A DNA stretch of 51,281 nucleotides. Origin: Theionarchaea archaeon (GTDB taxonomy: Archaea > Methanobacteriota_B > Thermococci > Methanofastidiosales > SZ-28-30). How positions within the stretch are numbered: position 1 is the first letter of the stretch; each line of letters starts with the position of its first letter. The translations under genes were made by a program, and so were the position numbers. Positions 17,309 to 27,765 of this stretch are shown piece after piece. Under the pieces are notes generated by a model. It did not search any database and was not told where the DNA came from. It saw only the letters and a program-made list of their open reading frames with translations. The stretch is from the NCBI GenBank assembly GCA_018992565.1, contig JACVGW010000006.1:1-51281 (forward strand), given 5' to 3'.

Positions 17309-19150
17309 TCAACGAAATACTGAAAGTAATCCCAGCTCTTTCAGTTTTGCTTCTGAAGGAGCTCCCGTCCGTGAGTCCCACTCCCGGAATTCATAGTACT
17401 GCGCGAGCATCTTCCTCCAGTCAGGACACTTACCTGCTGATCCTCCTTCAGACACTGGATGCGTCAGTATACCGGGGAGAGTGTCCCAGTCTGCAGTGAG
17501 GCCCATCTTGATATTGAACAGCCTTTTCATTGTTAGAACGCGCTCTCCAATTGTTTTAATCTCCGGTATTCCAGTATCCCATCCGGTAGCCAGAGTGAGC
17601 AGGTTACCAATGGAAGATGGGGAAGGGTTGCAGAACATGCAGAGGATAACAGTGCTGTAAAAAGCCCGATAGTCCTGAAGACGCGCACAGGTATCAGTCA
17701 TTACACTGCTGTCATCATAATGATCTGGAACAGGGATATCCAGTTCTGGAAATGGCTGCCCTGTGGAAGTCATGTACATATCGCACGAGTTGTGACCAGG
17801 TCCTCTGGGGCCTGTAGCATATGCAATAGCCATCCCATACGTGGAGCGAATATCATGGTATGTCACTTCCATGCCATCCACAGTGGCAATCTCATCACGG
17901 GGAACACCGAAGTAGTCCCCAACGGCATTAGCACCTTCAGCAAGGATGTCCCCTATCCCTTCACGGTGGGCAATCCTGGAAATGAACTGCAGTGCCGGAT
18001 CAATATCCCCGAAGTGAGGGTTGATGCCATCAAGATCATCAGCATGGATGATTCCTTTTTCTGAAAGGTAATAAATAAGAGAAATAACTCCGCTGGAGGA
18101 GATAGTGTCAATTCCATAATCATTGCACAAATAATTTGCCCTGGCTATAGCTTCTAGATTGTTATTGAGAAGTTGAGACCCAAATCCTGCCACTGTCTCA
18201 TATTCCGGGCCTTCTACTTCCCCTGGGATTCTATGTTTCCCCTCTTTCACGCTGACAACCCGGCCGCATCCAATAGGACAGGCAAAACAGTGACGGGAAC
18301 GCACCAGGATGGATTCTTTCATTGTTGAACCAGAAATATCGTAGGCACCATCGAATTCCCCTCTTGTCCAGTATTTGACTGGAAGCTGTCCCCTGACGTT
18401 GTACATGTCAACACCACCTGAGGTTCCCAGTTCCCCCATCATCTGGGCAGTAAATATGCCCATGATCTCATTCCTGATAGTCTTTGCCAGCTGGTTATAA
18501 TGCTCGGGGTCAGCGAGGTCAATATCCTGTGATTTTCCCCTGACTACAACAGCCTTCAGGTTCTTCGAGCCCATAACAGCTCCCATTCCTGTCCTTCCTG
18601 CTGCCCGTTCCTCAGATCCAATGCTGGCATATTTCACCAGGTTTTCCCCTGCGGGGCCTATGCAGGCAACCCTTGCCAGATCATCTGGACTTTCCTTCTT
18701 CAGTGTGAAATGTGTTTCATAGATACCTTTGCCCCACAGGTGGGAGGCATCCTTCAAATCCTGTTCATCGTTGGTAATCCACAGGTACACAGGGCGCTCA
18801 GAAGCTCCTTTCACCAGGACACCATCAAATCCAGCAAATTTCAGCTCTGCTCCAAAGAAGCCGCCACAGTTGGATTCTCCCCAGATCCCGGTAAGAGGTG
18901 ATTTGGCGCAGACCACCCATCTGCCTGCTGTGGGAGCACGAGTCCCTGTCAGAGGCCCTGTCATAAAAAAGAGAGGATTCTCTGCTCCCAGAGGATTGGT
19001 GCACTCATCCACAAGGTCATAGAGGTACCGCACCGCATACCCCGCCCCACCCAGAAAAGCTCTGGCAATCTCTTCATCTAGTGGTTCTGTGCCAATGCTC
19101 TCTCGGAGCAGGTCCACCACAAGAATCGTGCCGCAAAATCCTTTCATCAT
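17309..19150 (-). CDS. Aldehyde:ferredoxin oxidoreductase (tungsten/molybdopterin family)
   Basis: 'GGAGYAVRYLYD', 'NPLFFMTGPLTGTRAPTAGRW', 'GRTGMGAVMGSKNLKAVVVRG', 'CFACPIGCGRVV'. Start refined to ATG next to AGGTGAT. Confidence 0.93.
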   Translation of the reverse strand: MMKGFCGTILVVDLLRESIGTEPLDEEIARAFLGGAGYAVRYLYDLVDECTNPLGAENPLFFMTGPLTGTRAPTAGRWVVCAKSPLTGIWGESNCGGFFGAELKFAGFDGVLVKGASERPVYLWITNDEQDLKDASHLWGKGIYETHFTLKKESPDDLARVACIGPAGENLVKYASIGSEERAAGRTGMGAVMGSKNLKAVVVRGKSQDIDLADPEHYNQLAKTIRNEIMGIFTAQMMGELGTSGGVDMYNVRGQLPVKYWTRGEFDGAYDISGSTMKESILVRSRHCFACPIGCGRVVSVKEGKHRIPGEVEGPEYETVAGFGSQLLNNNLEAIARANYLCNDYGIDTISSSGVISLIYYLSEKGIIHADDLDGINPHFGDIDPALQFISRIAHREGIGDILAEGANAVGDYFGVPRDEIATVDGMEVTYHDIRSTYGMAIAYATGPRGPGHNSCDMYMTSTGQPFPELDIPVPDHYDDSSVMTDTCARLQDYRAFYSTVILCMFCNPSPSSIGNLLTLATGWDTGIPEIKTIGERVLTMKRLFNIKMGLTADWDTLPGILTHPVSEGGSAGKCPDWRKMLAQYYEFREWDSRTGAPSEAKLKELGLLSVFR

Positions 19151-19157
19151 ATCACCT

Positions 19158-20351
19158 TCAGAAATCGACGTTCCTTCCAGAGTACATGTATTCAAAAAGC
19201 TTTCTGAATTCTGCAACTCCAATACTGCGGGGGGTCATTACAGTACTGGCTGATTCCATGCACAGAGTGATAAGGTGATCCATATTCTCATCCAGGTCTT
19301 CCTGAGAGATCCCCAAGGCCTGTAAGGAAGGAGGTAGTCCTGTCTCTTTCTGCAGCCATTTTACCTTTTCTACAAGCTTATCAGCAGCTTTGGTATCCTC
19401 ATCTGACCAGTGGGCAACTCCAACTGACTTTGCAGCCAAAGAAACCTTCTTAGTAGAACTACTGCTCTCAGGATCACGTATACAGTATTCCATGGCGTAG
19501 GGTAAGCACAACCCTACAGCAGTACCGTGAGGAATGTGAAAAACGGCACCCAGAGCATGAGCCATAGCATGTCCCAGTGTCACCTGTGCATTGCCAAATG
19601 CCAGCCCACCCATGCTGGCTGCATCATGCAACAGCTCTCGTGCTTTCATATTGTCCCCATGGTGCACAGCTTCAGGCAGATATTCAAGAATGAGGCGGAT
19701 AGCTTCGATAGCAAGCGCATCTGAAAATACGTTCTGCCAGGTGGATATCAAGCATTCCACACTGTGAGCCAGGGCATCGAACCCTGTTCCTGCTGTGAGC
19801 CCTGGAGGCATTCCTCTCGTGAATACAGGATCAACCAGGGCAAAGGTGGGAATGACTCCTTTGTTTCCCTGCTCAAGTTTCAGGTCCCTCCCTTCCTGGG
19901 TTCGGGTAATGACTACTGCCCAGGTCGTCTCAGCACCGGTCCCTGAAGTAGTGGGGATGGCGATCAACTGAGCTTTCTTTCCTGTATTCAGGTTCTGAAA
20001 GGGATGGATCTCATCCACACTGGTAAACTCTGGATGTTCATATAAGACCCAGACAGCTTTCGCAGTATCAAGAGATGAACCTCCTCCAATTCCTATGATG
20101 AGATCTGGGTTATACATCTTACACTGCTCAGCTGCTACATAAACTGTCTCCTCTCTGGGATCAGGTTCCACATCTGCAAAGACTTCCCAGGCCTTGCCAG
20201 AACCCGCCAGTTTTTCAGTAAGAATGTCCAGCAATCCCAGGCTCTTGATGCCCGGGTCTGTCACAATAAAGCATTTCTTCCCTTCAATGGTTTCCAGGTG
20301 ATCCAGGGCATCTTCCCCGAAAACCACGATCGGCGAGTAGAAGTACCACAT
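19158..20351 (-). CDS. Iron-containing (type III) alcohol dehydrogenase
   Basis: 'IIGIGGGSSLDTAKAVWVL', 'AIPTTSGTGAETTWAVVIT', 'HAMAHALGAVFHIPHGTAVGLCLPYAMEY'. Confidence 0.95.
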   Translation of the reverse strand: MWYFYSPIVVFGEDALDHLETIEGKKCFIVTDPGIKSLGLLDILTEKLAGSGKAWEVFADVEPDPREETVYVAAEQCKMYNPDLIIGIGGGSSLDTAKAVWVLYEHPEFTSVDEIHPFQNLNTGKKAQLIAIPTTSGTGAETTWAVVITRTQEGRDLKLEQGNKGVIPTFALVDPVFTRGMPPGLTAGTGFDALAHSVECLISTWQNVFSDALAIEAIRLILEYLPEAVHHGDNMKARELLHDAASMGGLAFGNAQVTLGHAMAHALGAVFHIPHGTAVGLCLPYAMEYCIRDPESSSSTKKVSLAAKSVGVAHWSDEDTKAADKLVEKVKWLQKETGLPPSLQALGISQEDLDENMDHLITLCMESASTVMTPRSIGVAEFRKLFEYMYSGRNVDF

Positions 20352-22798: not shown

Positions 22799-23749
22799 TC
22801 AGGAGCGTTCCATGGCATGGAGATATATTCTCTTGATCAAGGTTTCAAAGGTCAGCCCCTGTAGTCTGGCCATGGTGGGAAATGCACTGTAACCGATATA
22901 GAGTCCAGGAAGCGTGTTGATTTCAAGGACATACGGAACGTTATCCTGGAGCCGAATGTCGACGCGGGCGTAATCTCTGCAGTGGAGCGCTCTATATGCT
23001 TTCATTGCAGCTCGAACAACAATCTTCCTCTCATGAGGAGTCAGTTGGGCACGGAATGTATGTTCAGTGGTATACCCAATGCGCGCTTTTACTTCAAAGT
23101 CGTATACAGCAGTGTCAAGGTCCTTGAAATCAGTTTCCAGGATGGGAAGTACGTCCAGGGATTCATTTCCCATAATACCCACTGTGAGTTCTCTTCCCTC
23201 CACAAAAGGTTCAATCATGACTGTGCTGTGCTTTGGAATGGTCTCTTTGACTGCCTTCTTGAGCTGGGAATAAGAGTTTACTTTTCGCACACCTCGGCTT
23301 GAACCCCCATCTGTAGGTTTCACCACCATTGGGAAATCTATGCCATCCAGATCATTACGGGTTACCTGAATGGTATCCAAGATCTCAAAAGGAGGAGTTG
23401 GGACTTTATTTGCCATGAAGACTTCCTTTGATTTTGGCTTGTTCAATCCCACTGCATGCGTCAGTACCCCTGAGCCTGTATATGGTATTCCAAGTCGTTC
23501 CAGAATGGCAGGAATGTGTGCTTGCTTGCTCTCTCCATTTAATCCTGTGCTCAAATTGAACACAGCATCCATCTTTCTCAACGTGGGGAGCGTAAATCTG
23601 TCCTCATTCATGAGCACCGGCTCGCACATATCTTTTAGCGCTCTGTAAATCGACTGGAGTGTCTTTCCCTTCATTTCAGGGGTATCAGCATAGATTTTTT
23701 CTTCCAGTTGTTCCATGCAGGTCTGGCTGTACACAATTCCTACCTTCAC
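22799..23749 (-). CDS. D-alanine--D-alanine ligase-like ATP-grasp enzyme
   Basis: 'HIPAILERLGIPYTGSGVLTHAVGLNKPKSKEVFMANKVPTP', 'FPMVVKPTDGGSSRGVRKV', 'VMIEPFVEGRELTVGIMG', 'DYARVDIRLQDNVPYVLEINTLPGL'. Confidence 0.85.
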   Translation of the reverse strand: MKVGIVYSQTCMEQLEEKIYADTPEMKGKTLQSIYRALKDMCEPVLMNEDRFTLPTLRKMDAVFNLSTGLNGESKQAHIPAILERLGIPYTGSGVLTHAVGLNKPKSKEVFMANKVPTPPFEILDTIQVTRNDLDGIDFPMVVKPTDGGSSRGVRKVNSYSQLKKAVKETIPKHSTVMIEPFVEGRELTVGIMGNESLDVLPILETDFKDLDTAVYDFEVKARIGYTTEHTFRAQLTPHERKIVVRAAMKAYRALHCRDYARVDIRLQDNVPYVLEINTLPGLYIGYSAFPTMARLQGLTFETLIKRIYLHAMERS

Positions 23750-24531
23750 CTGAACACCTCAGAGGGCAATTCTGGTACTGAAGGAGGAACTCTCTTGTAC
23801 GCAGTACTCTCTACTCTCTTGAGGACTTTCTTGATTACCTGTTCATCAATCCCCATGTCCACCAGATCTTCTGTGGAATGACCTCTCTCAATATGACATA
23901 AAATGATGTCGGCTTCAGAATAGCTGAATCCGAATTCTTCCTCATCTGTCTGACCGGCCCAGAAATCTGCAGTGGACTTCTTCTCTACAATACGTTCAGG
24001 GACTCCCAACTCTCGTCCCAGAATGACAATCTGAGTCTTGTATAACCCCGATATGGGATCTATGTCCCAGGCAGAGTCCCCGTGGTTGGTAAAATATCCC
24101 AGGAGGTCTTCAGATTTGTTGCTTGTTCCAAGAACCAGAGCCTTGTACTTGTCTGCATAGTAGTACAGAATGCTCATGCGCTCTCTTACCATCTTGCTTC
24201 CCAGTCGCCTCTTGTCAGTGTCATTGACCACTGCTTTAAAAGAGTCCACCATGGGAGAAATATCCACTTCGAGAAAGGATATTCCCAAATCCTCGATGAC
24301 GGCTTGTGCATCCTCCTTGTTCTGTTGAGACATTGTCCTGTAGGGCAAGAAGATGCCTATAACGTTCTCTCTTCCTAAGGCTTCAGTGGCCAAGTATGCG
24401 ACTACAGCAGAGTCGATTCCCCCTGAAATACCAATAACAGCTTTGTCAAAGGGAGACTTTTCCACTTCGTTCTGGACAAAATTAATCAAGTGTTCTTTCA
24501 GTAGTGTTGTATTAATATCCACAAATAACAT
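23746..24531 (-). CDS. nadE: NAD+ synthase, ammonia-dependent type
   Basis: 'AVIGISGGIDSAVVAYLATEALG', 'VLGTSNKSEDLLGYFTNHGDSAWDIDPISGLYKTQI', 'KKSTADFWAGQTDEEEFGFSYSEAD'. Confidence 0.93.
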   Translation of the reverse strand: MLFVDINTTLLKEHLINFVQNEVEKSPFDKAVIGISGGIDSAVVAYLATEALGRENVIGIFLPYRTMSQQNKEDAQAVIEDLGISFLEVDISPMVDSFKAVVNDTDKRRLGSKMVRERMSILYYYADKYKALVLGTSNKSEDLLGYFTNHGDSAWDIDPISGLYKTQIVILGRELGVPERIVEKKSTADFWAGQTDEEEFGFSYSEADIILCHIERGHSTEDLVDMGIDEQVIKKVLKRVESTAYKRVPPSVPELPSEVFR

Positions 24532-26161
24532 CCTCCGCTAATCCATCTATTCGTTCCTGTTCAGTCATGATCTGACCTTCATTCACCGCGTAGCATGCTC
24601 CATTGATCATTTGCGTTCTGACTTCGCCTCTGGCTATAGTGCTGCCCTTCAACTGGGGAGCATCCAGCAACCCACATCTCACTGCTTTCTCCAGTACCTC
24701 TGGATCAGTGAGAGGCTCTTCAGCACTACTCCCCAGAGTCTTTATGGCATCAATGAGGATATACGCTTCTCTCAACAACTGGTTCTTTCTCTGGATCACT
24801 CTGGGGTCAGCTGCCGCATCTGGCATTCCCATGAGACAATTCTGTATGACACGTCTCGCAATCTTCGATGTCCTGATGACATCTTCGGGCGTGGCTGCAT
24901 GGTCTGCCTCGCTGTAGGACACACAGTGCACTATGTCGGGGTGAATGGCCATTCCCACGCTGACCGCAAATGCCAGCTGCCCCATTGCATAGTCGGTATC
25001 CACAGGATAACTCAGCAATCCGGCCACCCGCACCTGCCGCAGCGAAGTGAATGTCTGGTCATGCAACGATTCGATCAATGTCATCTTGGCAATCATCTTG
25101 GCCACATCCATCAAAGGAGATGTACCCAGAGGGGTGTTAAACATATACTGAGACACATAGGTGCTCACCCCCATGTTCTTTGCATTGTAAGCTGCCAGAT
25201 ATGCCATGACCACAGCCAGAGTATCATGTGCATTTCGCAGCGACCACTGATGGGCTTCATTGACTTCCACAGGAATCCCTCTTTCCGCATTCCACCTCAT
25301 GTTCTCTTGATTCTCAGAAATGGCCTCTCTCAAAGGCCTGGCACTCCTTCCATCCAATTCACTATACCAGGTCAAAGGAGTAGCAGTCCATGCATTGTTG
25401 ATTGTCTCACAGAGAAGCCTTGACATCCTCATCAGGTCCCGCGTCCCGCTGTAACATCGTAAGAGAGGATAGTTCCCCCGTCTTGACGCCCTGTACATCC
25501 TGACAAGGTCCTCCTTCCTACGGAAGGGGACGCCTCCAGAACCTGTCTCCTCTGTCATCTCTTCCGGGCGGAAGAAGCTCTCCTGCGCATTCTGGTCAGG
25601 AGCAATACTAATAACGTCCACTACCTGAGCTTCGGCAATCCTTTGTATACCCCTCGTGGTTTCCTCCAGTGAAGGCAAGCCAAAGTGATGACGTAGAATG
25701 GGGAAGGGTTTCTTGAGAAAAACCCGCTCAATCAATGTCTGAGGATAGTAGTCTTTTTCCTGGGTTACCTCCTCGTGCTTCAAATACGAGATAGTATCTT
25801 CCATGGTAGATAATCCGTCAAATACTCTTTCAAACAGTCCCGATTTTTCAGCAACACTGCACACTGGAGCAGTTCCTCCACATATCCATCTCTTATTCTT
25901 AATTCCATGGTGTGAAATCTTCTTCTTTAACTCCTCAAACAGCACCTGAGCGTTTTCTGGAGTCAACCGGTATGACACACCAATAATGTCAGGATCATAT
26001 TCCATGATCTCCCGAATAAGATCATCGATACGGACTGCAGGTCCTAAGAACTTTGTTTGATATTCCAATTTCTCAGCAAGGTCCAGGAAGTTCAAAACGC
26101 CTGCCACGTGGATGCAACTTCCAATTGATGCACCCAGTATTCTCTTACTCATGCTATGCAC
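24512..26161 (-). CDS. Cobalamin-dependent, glutamate-mutase-like protein: N-terminal B12-binding domain fused to catalytic barrel
   Basis: N-terminal 'ILGASIGSCIHVAGVLNFLDLAEKLEYQTKFLGPAVRIDDLI' (DxHxxG-like CIHVAG); barrel segment 'NNAWTATPLTWYSELDGRSARPLREAISENQENMRWNAERGIPVEVNEAHQWSLRNAHDT'. Confidence 0.7.
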   Translation of the reverse strand: MHSMSKRILGASIGSCIHVAGVLNFLDLAEKLEYQTKFLGPAVRIDDLIREIMEYDPDIIGVSYRLTPENAQVLFEELKKKISHHGIKNKRWICGGTAPVCSVAEKSGLFERVFDGLSTMEDTISYLKHEEVTQEKDYYPQTLIERVFLKKPFPILRHHFGLPSLEETTRGIQRIAEAQVVDVISIAPDQNAQESFFRPEEMTEETGSGGVPFRRKEDLVRMYRASRRGNYPLLRCYSGTRDLMRMSRLLCETINNAWTATPLTWYSELDGRSARPLREAISENQENMRWNAERGIPVEVNEAHQWSLRNAHDTLAVVMAYLAAYNAKNMGVSTYVSQYMFNTPLGTSPLMDVAKMIAKMTLIESLHDQTFTSLRQVRVAGLLSYPVDTDYAMGQLAFAVSVGMAIHPDIVHCVSYSEADHAATPEDVIRTSKIARRVIQNCLMGMPDAAADPRVIQRKNQLLREAYILIDAIKTLGSSAEEPLTDPEVLEKAVRCGLLDAPQLKGSTIARGEVRTQMINGACYAVNEGQIMTEQERIDGLAEDVICGY

Positions 26162-27227
26162 CTCTGGTAACGTATTCTATCATCTGTTGACTATTCATTC
26201 CTTCAAGACCCAGACTCTTCACTGTCCTTCCTTCTAATCCAAAATCAATTCCGTACAGGTGAGTGGCAATCCCAATGACACTCTCAATGGCTGGGGCAGG
26301 TGCTCCCAGATAATTCCCCAGCGAAGCAATAGGCACCAGTCCTGTAGGAATGTCTTCCATGATATACCGATGGACAGGGGTTTGCGGCGATCCTACTCCG
26401 CTATATTTCCCATTATCCTGGATGCGTTCGAACAACGTCTCTCCCTGGGCATTGTAGACTCTTCTCAACCACTGGCGCGCAGACAGTGTTGAAACACCCA
26501 TAGCATGAGCAACTCGCTGCCTTTCTTTGTCAACCCGCTCAAGAAACCGTGCCACGTAAGGAGTTATTCCATCAAAATAGTAGCTAAACTTCTGGCTTGA
26601 TTCAATTCTGCCCATATTGAGAATCATGGTGGACGGATGGAAAATGGCACCTATGTTGGCCAGACTAGTTTCCATCACATTTTCTGCCTTTTCGAAAGAG
26701 GGGTGAACCTTCTTCAACAGGCTGATTACTCTGCTGGTATCTGAAGCGGGAAAGGCTGCTACAGGCACTGATTTCTTGATGCCTGTGATCCTGGCCTGGT
26801 TATCCACCACCCGGCTCACGAATAAAAAAGTCTGTGTTTCTGCAATGTATATTCTTCTTGAGAATCCTTTCCTTTCCAGAGCATTTTTGAATTCCAGAGC
26901 ACCCCCTGTACGCCCGGGATTGAGAACAACAACCTGGCCATCTTCCAAATGAGGAGCACAGATTTCGGCAATAAACCTATGTGCCTGAGCGGGCACTACC
27001 ACCATAACCAGATCTACATTAGAAAGTGCTTTCTTGATATCTGTCGTAACAACATTCAGAGGGGCAACCTCCTCAAAAAGCCCCCTTAAATGAATGCCCA
27101 TATCATTTTTTATGTGTTCTATTCTCTTTTCGCTTCTATTAAACAAGTTCACAGAGAATCCTCTCACGGAAAGGTACCCTGCCAGTGCCTGACCTCCATT
27201 ACCTGCTCCCAAAACGGCTACATTCAT
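26154..27227 (-). CDS. NAD/NADP octopine/nopaline dehydrogenase family protein
   Basis: 'MNVAVLGAGNGGQALAGYLSVRGFSVNLFNRSEKRIEHI' Rossmann motif; C-terminal 'RYIMEDIPTGLVPIASLGNYLGAPAPAIESVIGIA' typical of the family. Confidence 0.9.
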   Translation of the reverse strand: MNVAVLGAGNGGQALAGYLSVRGFSVNLFNRSEKRIEHIKNDMGIHLRGLFEEVAPLNVVTTDIKKALSNVDLVMVVVPAQAHRFIAEICAPHLEDGQVVVLNPGRTGGALEFKNALERKGFSRRIYIAETQTFLFVSRVVDNQARITGIKKSVPVAAFPASDTSRVISLLKKVHPSFEKAENVMETSLANIGAIFHPSTMILNMGRIESSQKFSYYFDGITPYVARFLERVDKERQRVAHAMGVSTLSARQWLRRVYNAQGETLFERIQDNGKYSGVGSPQTPVHRYIMEDIPTGLVPIASLGNYLGAPAPAIESVIGIATHLYGIDFGLEGRTVKSLGLEGMNSQQMIEYVTRGA

Positions 27228-27252
27228 GCTATCACCTCTTATCTACCAACGT

Positions 27253-27519
27253 TCACTTTTTCAACCTTATAAAAGTCTTTCTCTTCCCCAAATCACCCTT
27301 ACCATATGATTTCTCTACTAAATCGCATTTTAACAGCTTTTCGACTCCTTTTGAAACGGCTGCTTCCGTAAATCCGATTTCGTTCGCAATGAAGCAAATT
27401 GAATTTGAACCCTCCTTCTCTGCCAGATACAAAAGTATCAAGAGAGCTGTAGGATTCCGTTTGATCTCGTAGGGAAGAGCCTTTATATCGGTGGTGGTCA
27501 TGTTCATCTCGTGTTCCAC
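27253..27519 (-). CDS. Small winged-helix transcriptional regulator
   Basis: 'RNPTALLILLYLAEKEGSNSICFIANEIGFTEAAVSKGVEKLLKCDLVEKSYGKGDLGKRKTFIRLKK'. Confidence 0.75.
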   Translation of the reverse strand: MEHEMNMTTTDIKALPYEIKRNPTALLILLYLAEKEGSNSICFIANEIGFTEAAVSKGVEKLLKCDLVEKSYGKGDLGKRKTFIRLKK

Positions 27520-27539: not shown

Positions 27540-27577
27540 TCACATTTGTTATGTGACAATTATTATATGATAATTGT
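27540..27577. promoter_or_regulatory. Two adjacent palindromes (putative operator) between TATA box and start of the wHTH-led operon
   Basis: TCACAT-TTGTT-ATGTGA (27540-27556) and ACAATTAT-TATATG-ATAATTGT (27556-27577). Minus-strand TATA-like TTTATATA lies just upstream (~27582-27592). Confidence 0.6.
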
Positions 27578-27765
27578 TAAACTATATAAAGCTTTCGGTT
27601 AAGAGGTGCTGGGGGTCATGAAAACCAAAAGGAAATCCACCTTCGCAAAGCAGTGCAGTGTCGCTCTTTCCTCTGGGTGTCGACGAGAATACTACTTGAA
27701 ATTCTGGGGAAGAGTAGTCCCTGGTTCTTGCGAAAGATTTTTATCCTGTACCATTCAGTTGGATC

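Follow-up and report, generated by a model that had tools for sequence, protein, structure and literature searches.

The stretch of DNA analysed here (the window, 51,281 nucleotides of contig JACVGW010000006.1, from a 2.8-Mb metagenome-assembled genome of a Theionarchaea archaeon) carries five closely packed genes on its minus strand (27519-22799). In order, these encode a winged helix-turn-helix regulator (wHTH), an opine-dehydrogenase-family enzyme (ODH), an adenosylcobalamin (AdoCbl) mutase (MUT), an NAD synthase (NadE) and an ATP-grasp ligase resembling D-alanine-D-alanine ligase (Ddl-like). The conserved part of this operon is the ODH-MUT pair. The safest statement is that the pair forms a two-enzyme module, in which an AdoCbl mutase and an opine-family dehydrogenase act on one metabolite line, and the fact that it is conserved in many sediment archaea, probable Asgard archaea included, suggests a two-step amino-acid pathway that has yet to be described. 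With a probability of roughly 0.6, MUT represents an undescribed class of AdoCbl mutase that has its own invariant substrate site and is almost always partnered with ODH, giving a new B12 amino-acid pathway in Theionarchaea and probable Asgard archaea.

Distribution and coupling of the ODH-MUT pair

Archaeal genomes were searched with a MUT profile. Full-length MUT is present in the window's order, in family f20, and in 90 of 228 genomes (ten families) of a second phylum, the latter count being taken at E < 1e-40. This second phylum is probably Asgardarchaeota, since gelsolin genes were found in all seven of its tested genomes and in none of five others or 14 controls. A tblastn search with MUT against plasmids returned no match. 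Within the window's order, ODH and MUT always occur together where they are present, as wHTH-ODH-MUT in the Theionarchaea (family f1) and in f2 and as ODH-MUT in f3, and both are missing in f4.

Of 98 loci, 93 have ODH directly beside MUT and on one strand with it, 56 arranged ODH-MUT and 37 MUT-ODH. The occurrence of both gene orders indicates that the link between the two genes has survived rearrangement. Three of the five exceptions have a MUT gene truncated by a contig end; the other two (L216 and L262) come from a single Asgard genus and have an Asn-synthetase-like gene directly after MUT with no ODH nearby, L262 having approximately 5 kb on either side. Spacing is tight: of the 51 pairs measured, 41 have overlapping genes, in 31 cases by exactly 4 nt, and no gap exceeds 30 nt. 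The distances of ODH and MUT are also correlated (Mantel r 0.92), a value also expected from shared vertical descent and not counted as proof. An earlier, sequence-only reading of the window had treated the mutase and the opine-type dehydrogenase as one functional unit, and this grouping is upheld by the adjacency, usually with overlap, of the two genes in either order and in two phyla of archaea.

The mutase

MUT is scarcely recognized by Pfam. The only domain detected is the B12-binding domain PF02310 (E 1.5e-7), which at 31.7 bits falls below the cut-off of 32.1. Of 15 family members, nine match the glutamate mutase domain PF06368 with E values of 0.1 or less, 5.8e-5 being the best, and the window protein gives no such match. 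The MUT barrel aligns to a MutE profile built from nine sequences over 378 columns (hhalign P 6e-8 local, 2e-11 global); hhalign against a single GlmE sequence was not significant. The AlphaFold model of MUT, obtained with an alignment of 45 sequences, has a pLDDT of 91.3 and a pTM of 0.85, and its top PDB match by Foldseek is glutamate mutase (1cb7_B, E 7.5e-18), followed by ornithine and lysine aminomutases. Judged from these alignments and the predicted fold, MUT is homologous to glutamate mutase but has diverged from it, and it joins a MutS-like B12 domain and a MutE barrel in one fused protein. The initial description of this gene as B12 carbon-skeleton mutase-like holds by virtue of the profile-profile and structural comparisons, Pfam by itself being insufficient.

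The cofactor and substrate sites appear to have had different fates. His15 and Gly18 of the B12 motif are invariant (43/43), while the Asp position of the DxHxxG motif, whose His serves as the lower ligand, is occupied by Cys in 38 of the 43 sequences (CxHxxG) and by Asp in the other five. Barrel residues were mapped from a GlmE sequence identical to 1cb7_B at approximately 16% identity, such that single assignments are provisional. In glutamate mutase, a barrel Glu that touches the adenosyl ribose (E330; E338 in ornithine aminomutase) stabilizes the adenosyl radical state (PMC4413051). This Glu330 corresponds to E415 in MUT, which is invariant (45/45), suggesting that the cofactor chemistry is kept. 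The arginine claw that binds glutamate in glutamate mutase (R66, R100 and R149; PMC10947579) corresponds to H156, Q190 and Y234, present in 45, 44 and 45 of the 45 sequences, respectively, and GlmE Y177, Y181 and K326 correspond to W262, R269 and V411, each invariant or nearly so. The replacement of the claw by other invariant residues suggests a rebuilt substrate site and a substrate that probably differs from glutamate. An assignment of MUT as a glutamate mutase was rejected on the loss of the claw. Likewise, residues 1-135 contain no invariant or nearly invariant Lys, and an assignment as an ornithine or lysine aminomutase was rejected because the B12 domain is without the pyridoxal phosphate (PLP)-binding lysine.

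These observations bear on two other accounts of MUT. In the first, MUT is a fused glutamate mutase that converts glutamate to 3-methylaspartate, with ODH standing in for methylaspartate ammonia-lyase by oxidative deamination. Glutamate mutase is indeed the best structural and profile match, and genes for its accessory protein GlmL adjoin some pairs; however, the six substitutions listed above are each invariant or almost so in the 45 sequences, and no methylaspartate ammonia-lyase-like neighbour was recognized among the genes read near MUT, making this account quite unlikely. The second holds that MUT is a corrinoid methyltransferase or B12 sensor and not a radical mutase. The B12 domain taken by itself also resembles methyltransferase corrinoid proteins, and the pairs of family f123 have neighbours that resemble, by eye, MttB/MttC-type corrinoid methyltransferases. 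Homology of the barrel to MutE and the invariant adenosyl-binding Glu argue against this role, which is highly improbable.

Two variants of the family were also seen. MUT is approximately 40 residues shorter at its C-terminus in f123 (L203, L207, L217), and a more distant MUT barrel (33% identity) with no recognized ODH neighbour, located at a contig end (L129:7732-9117, genome G375), possibly represents a second subfamily.

The dehydrogenase

ODH scores 150.7 bits against PF02317 (cut-off 30) and is homologous over its full length to N-(1-D-carboxylethyl)-L-norvaline dehydrogenase (CENDH, PDB 1bg6, E 8e-72). The catalytic His and Asp of 1bg6 find their counterparts in H197 and D292 of ODH, and both are conserved in the aligned mutase-linked copies. 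The domain match and the His-Asp pair together place ODH in the opine dehydrogenase family.

These genomes contain a second, separate ODH paralogue that shares 32-34% identity with the mutase-linked ODH. Its neighbours include D-serine-dehydratase-like and fumarate-reductase-like genes and, judged by eye only, genes for threonine synthase, RidA and Asp racemase. The paralogue is split into two reading frames in the window genome (G000:C16, L130:9085-11339), whereas the sister genome has an unbroken copy (L132:8644-9753), which stands beside D-serine-dehydratase-like, fumarate-reductase-like and RidA-like genes.

Proposed pathway and gene neighbours

In the proposed pathway, the B12 domain of MUT would bind its cofactor in the base-off/His-on form and the glutamate-mutase-type barrel would generate the 5'-deoxyadenosyl radical, allowing MUT to rearrange an amino-acid-like substrate held otherwise than glutamate. 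ODH would act next, oxidizing the C-N bond of the MUT product in an NAD(P)-linked reaction, or catalyzing a reductive amination in the reverse direction. In Theionarchaea, the operon with its single small wHTH regulator also includes the NAD synthase and the Ddl-like ligase. Homology, conserved coupling and conservation of the cofactor site are observed features of the module, to which we infer a step order, a direction and a substrate.

The function slightly favoured for this B12-dependent mutase and NAD(P) dehydrogenase is the turnover of (D-)amino acids. A D-amino acid is the leading guess for the substrate because, in some lineages, the pair has racemases and D-amino-acid enzymes as neighbours. 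In one Asgard genus, six genomes carry a gene for an ornithine-racemase-like (Orr-like) protein (NF040742, 370 bits) and a Ddl-like gene upstream of MUT-ODH, although in one of the six the contig stops after MUT. In f2, MUT is followed by a D-glutamate-cyclase-like gene, and an Asp/Glu racemase gene lies near one ODH-MUT pair. Genes related to B12 enzymes are also present: a GlmL gene (NF040745, above cut-off) comes immediately after ODH in f20 and borders MUT in f120, and the corrinoid adenosyltransferase gene cobO lies upstream of the pair in f2 and occurs elsewhere in the window genome as well. In ornithine fermentation, the product of the mutase is oxidized by an NAD-dependent dehydrogenase (PMC4413051). 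On the strength of this model and of the D-amino-acid neighbours, our analysis prefers a catabolic role with a racemized amino acid over a biosynthetic one, which would draw on the recurring ligases.

Several points weigh against this interpretation. Opine synthesis by ODH is equally possible. The Orr-like racemase is confined to a single genus, is set off by a gap of 413-447 nt, and at 370 bits scores under the curated cut-off of 480. There is no GlmL gene in the window's own order, and CxHxxG prevails where B12 mutases carry Asp in the cofactor-coordinating motif. The low identity underlying the residue mapping counts on the same side.

In the biosynthetic alternative, an N-(carboxyalkyl) amino acid would arise through reductive condensation of an amino acid and a 2-oxo acid by ODH, MUT would rearrange this compound or its precursor, and an ATP-dependent ligase would form an amide, lactam or peptide bond. 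The ligase would be a glutaminase-dead Asn-synthetase-like enzyme, a Ddl-like enzyme or, in Theionarchaea, NadE, and the product could be an osmolyte, metal ligand or signal. Consistent with this proposal, seven loci from four Asgard families have an Asn-synthetase-like gene on the same strand at a distance of 16-110 nt from the pair or MUT, and in an f2 genome such a gene comes second after MUT. The catalytic N-terminal Cys of Gln-dependent Asn synthetase is missing from all readable N-termini of these proteins (one is masked), and Ddl-like ligases recur in two phyla. However, most loci have no ligase nearby, indicating that a ligase cannot be core, the scores of NadE are those of a plain NAD synthase, and genes for transport or secretion are not among the recurring neighbours. 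Biosynthesis is less likely, and turnover of a racemized amino acid is retained as the preferred role. The Cys-less Asn-synthetase-like genes are those of L188, L198, L216, L228, L230, L262 and L024; the glutaminase domain is also shortened in L024, L188 and L198.

NadE and the Ddl-like ligase

To all appearance, NadE is an ordinary NAD synthase. It matches PF02540 (E 1e-76) and exceeds the curated cut-offs of NF010587 (311 bits versus 255) and TIGR00552 (235 versus 64). In genome G020, the operon NadE and one weak match are the only candidates found, and the operon copy may be the sole NAD synthase there. Since the curated cut-offs are passed and G020 may have no other NAD synthase, NadE is most simply a housekeeping passenger that probably does no more than supply NAD. 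The window genome has a second NadE-domain protein (G000:C67:21390-22133), with an open frame of 531 residues, that resembles the long NadE of f2.

The Ddl-like protein retains the ATP-grasp nucleotide and Mg residues (K97, K144, E180, D257, E270 and N272). It scores 190 bits against TIGR01205 (cut-off 246), is below every Ddl cut-off shown, and has no residues equivalent to E15 and Y216 of DdlB, which bind D-Ala. Its identification as a Ddl was rejected on the scores and the missing D-Ala residues. The combination of a kept ATP-grasp site and a missing D-Ala site suggests that the enzyme probably joins substrates other than D-Ala, and these could belong to the ODH-MUT pathway. The Ddl-like gene of the Asgard genus is a different one, lying approximately 1.5 kb upstream of MUT-ODH in the six genomes.

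A further account has all five genes making up a single dedicated pathway, with both NadE and the Ddl-like enzyme taking part in its chemistry. The tight overlaps, the retention of all five genes in the same order in a sister Theionarchaea genome (JACVGT01, 79-86% identity) and the existence of a second, longer NadE in the window genome speak for this proposal. However, the complete order is limited, among the genomes compared, to these two f1 genomes, the only ones with NadE and the Ddl-like gene behind MUT. Both genes are absent beside the pair in f2 and f3, NadE adjoins ODH-MUT in no other lineage, and the operon NadE may be the only NAD synthase of G020. A single dedicated pathway is therefore unlikely, and NadE and Ddl were rejected as core genes; they are mostly local extras. 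The sequence-only reading had expected its grouping to fail if relatives did not keep the genes adjacent, which is the case for NadE and, given the Ddl-like neighbours in the six Asgard genomes, only partly so for Ddl. Of the ODH-mutase-Ddl trio that it had put forward for a neighbourhood search, the ODH-mutase link stands and the Ddl link does not extend beyond Theionarchaea and one Asgard genus.

Operon layout and control region

The coordinates, strand and order of the five packed genes, as first described, were all borne out by the open reading frames (Table 1). The wHTH and ODH genes are separated by 25 nt. MUT overlaps ODH by 8 nt if it starts at GTG 26161 and follows it after a 1-nt gap if it starts at ATG 26152. 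The MUT and NadE genes overlap by 20 nt, and the NadE and Ddl-like genes overlap by 4 nt (GTGA). The wHTH reading frame is open from GTG 27519 (27253-27519 at its longest), ATG 27507 being the likelier start.

Table 1. Features of the Theionarchaea operon and its upstream region (window coordinates).
Feature	Position	Strand	Basis
Putative B recognition element (BRE)/TATA promoter element CGAAAGCTTTATATA of the operon	27583..27597	-	Sequence reading; kept in G020, G003 and G004 before the same wHTH gene
Palindrome, 11-nt arms ACAATTATTAT/ATGATAATTGT, directly downstream of the TATA element	27556..27577	.	Sequence
wHTH regulator, ArsR-type HTH_5, 84 aa	27253..27507	-	PF01022 E 4.9e-6; upstream of ODH in f1 and f2
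ODH, opine-dehydrogenase-family NAD(P) enzyme, 357 aa	26154..27227	-	PF02317 4e-44; PDB 1bg6 match
MUT, fused AdoCbl mutase (B12 domain 1-130, MutE-type TIM barrel ~140-546)	24512..26152	-	PF02310; AF2; Foldseek; hhalign
NadE, NH3-dependent NAD synthase, 261 aa	23746..24531	-	NF010587; TIGR00552; SGGIDS PP-loop
Ddl-like ATP-grasp ligase, 316 aa	22799..23749	-	PF07478 2.6e-43; under all Ddl family cut-offs

The promoter region 5' of the wHTH gene (AAAGCTTTATATAGTTTAA) is shared by four genomes from two families, two of which differ at one position. Conservation of the TATA-like element in these genomes fits a single transcription unit. The palindrome is a possible operator for the wHTH protein, a reading weakened by the fact that no counterpart is reported in the sister genome.

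Aldehyde-ferredoxin-oxidoreductase-like and iron-alcohol-dehydrogenase-like genes lie nearby, after the operon (17309-20351). Genes of the former type are also found near the ODH-MUT pair in L029, L123, L126 and L127.

Significance

To our knowledge, few AdoCbl carbon-skeleton or amino mutase reactions are known, and each defines a pathway. The present family is one that Pfam scarcely recognizes and that has a fixed dehydrogenase partner in nearly every locus; this partner makes a coupled NAD(P)H assay ready for substrate screening. The pair also bears on the little-known amino-acid metabolism of Asgard archaea. Among the open-access papers searched, none links octopine dehydrogenase to glutamate mutase, and none connects the latter to Asgard archaea.

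Comparison with known systems

The Ddl-like protein shares its ATP-grasp fold and nucleotide/Mg residues with D-alanine-D-alanine ligase, and differs from it in the loss of the E15/Y216 equivalents, in its sub-cut-off scores and in its archaeal host. ODH resembles CENDH and other opine dehydrogenases over its full length, including the catalytic His/Asp pair, but unlike them is tied to a B12 mutase. Ornithine fermentation (Orr, the OraSE 4,5-aminomutase and 2,4-diaminopentanoate dehydrogenase) likewise pairs a B12 mutase with a subsequent NAD-linked dehydrogenase. The Orr-like racemase of the six Asgard genomes and the rank of OraE as next-best structural match to MUT add to this likeness, whereas MUT is without the PLP-holding lysine of the OraE B12 domain and the dehydrogenase is of the opine family.

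Glutamate mutase (MutS/GlmS, MutE/GlmE and GlmL) has the same domains and fold as MUT, with a barrel that is homologous throughout and a Glu330 kept as E415, and its accessory protein GlmL is encoded next to the ODH-MUT pair in two families. In contrast to glutamate mutase, MUT has its B12 domain fused N-terminally, mostly carries CxHxxG instead of DxHxxG, has replaced the claw along with Y177, Y181 and K326, and has ODH as its partner.

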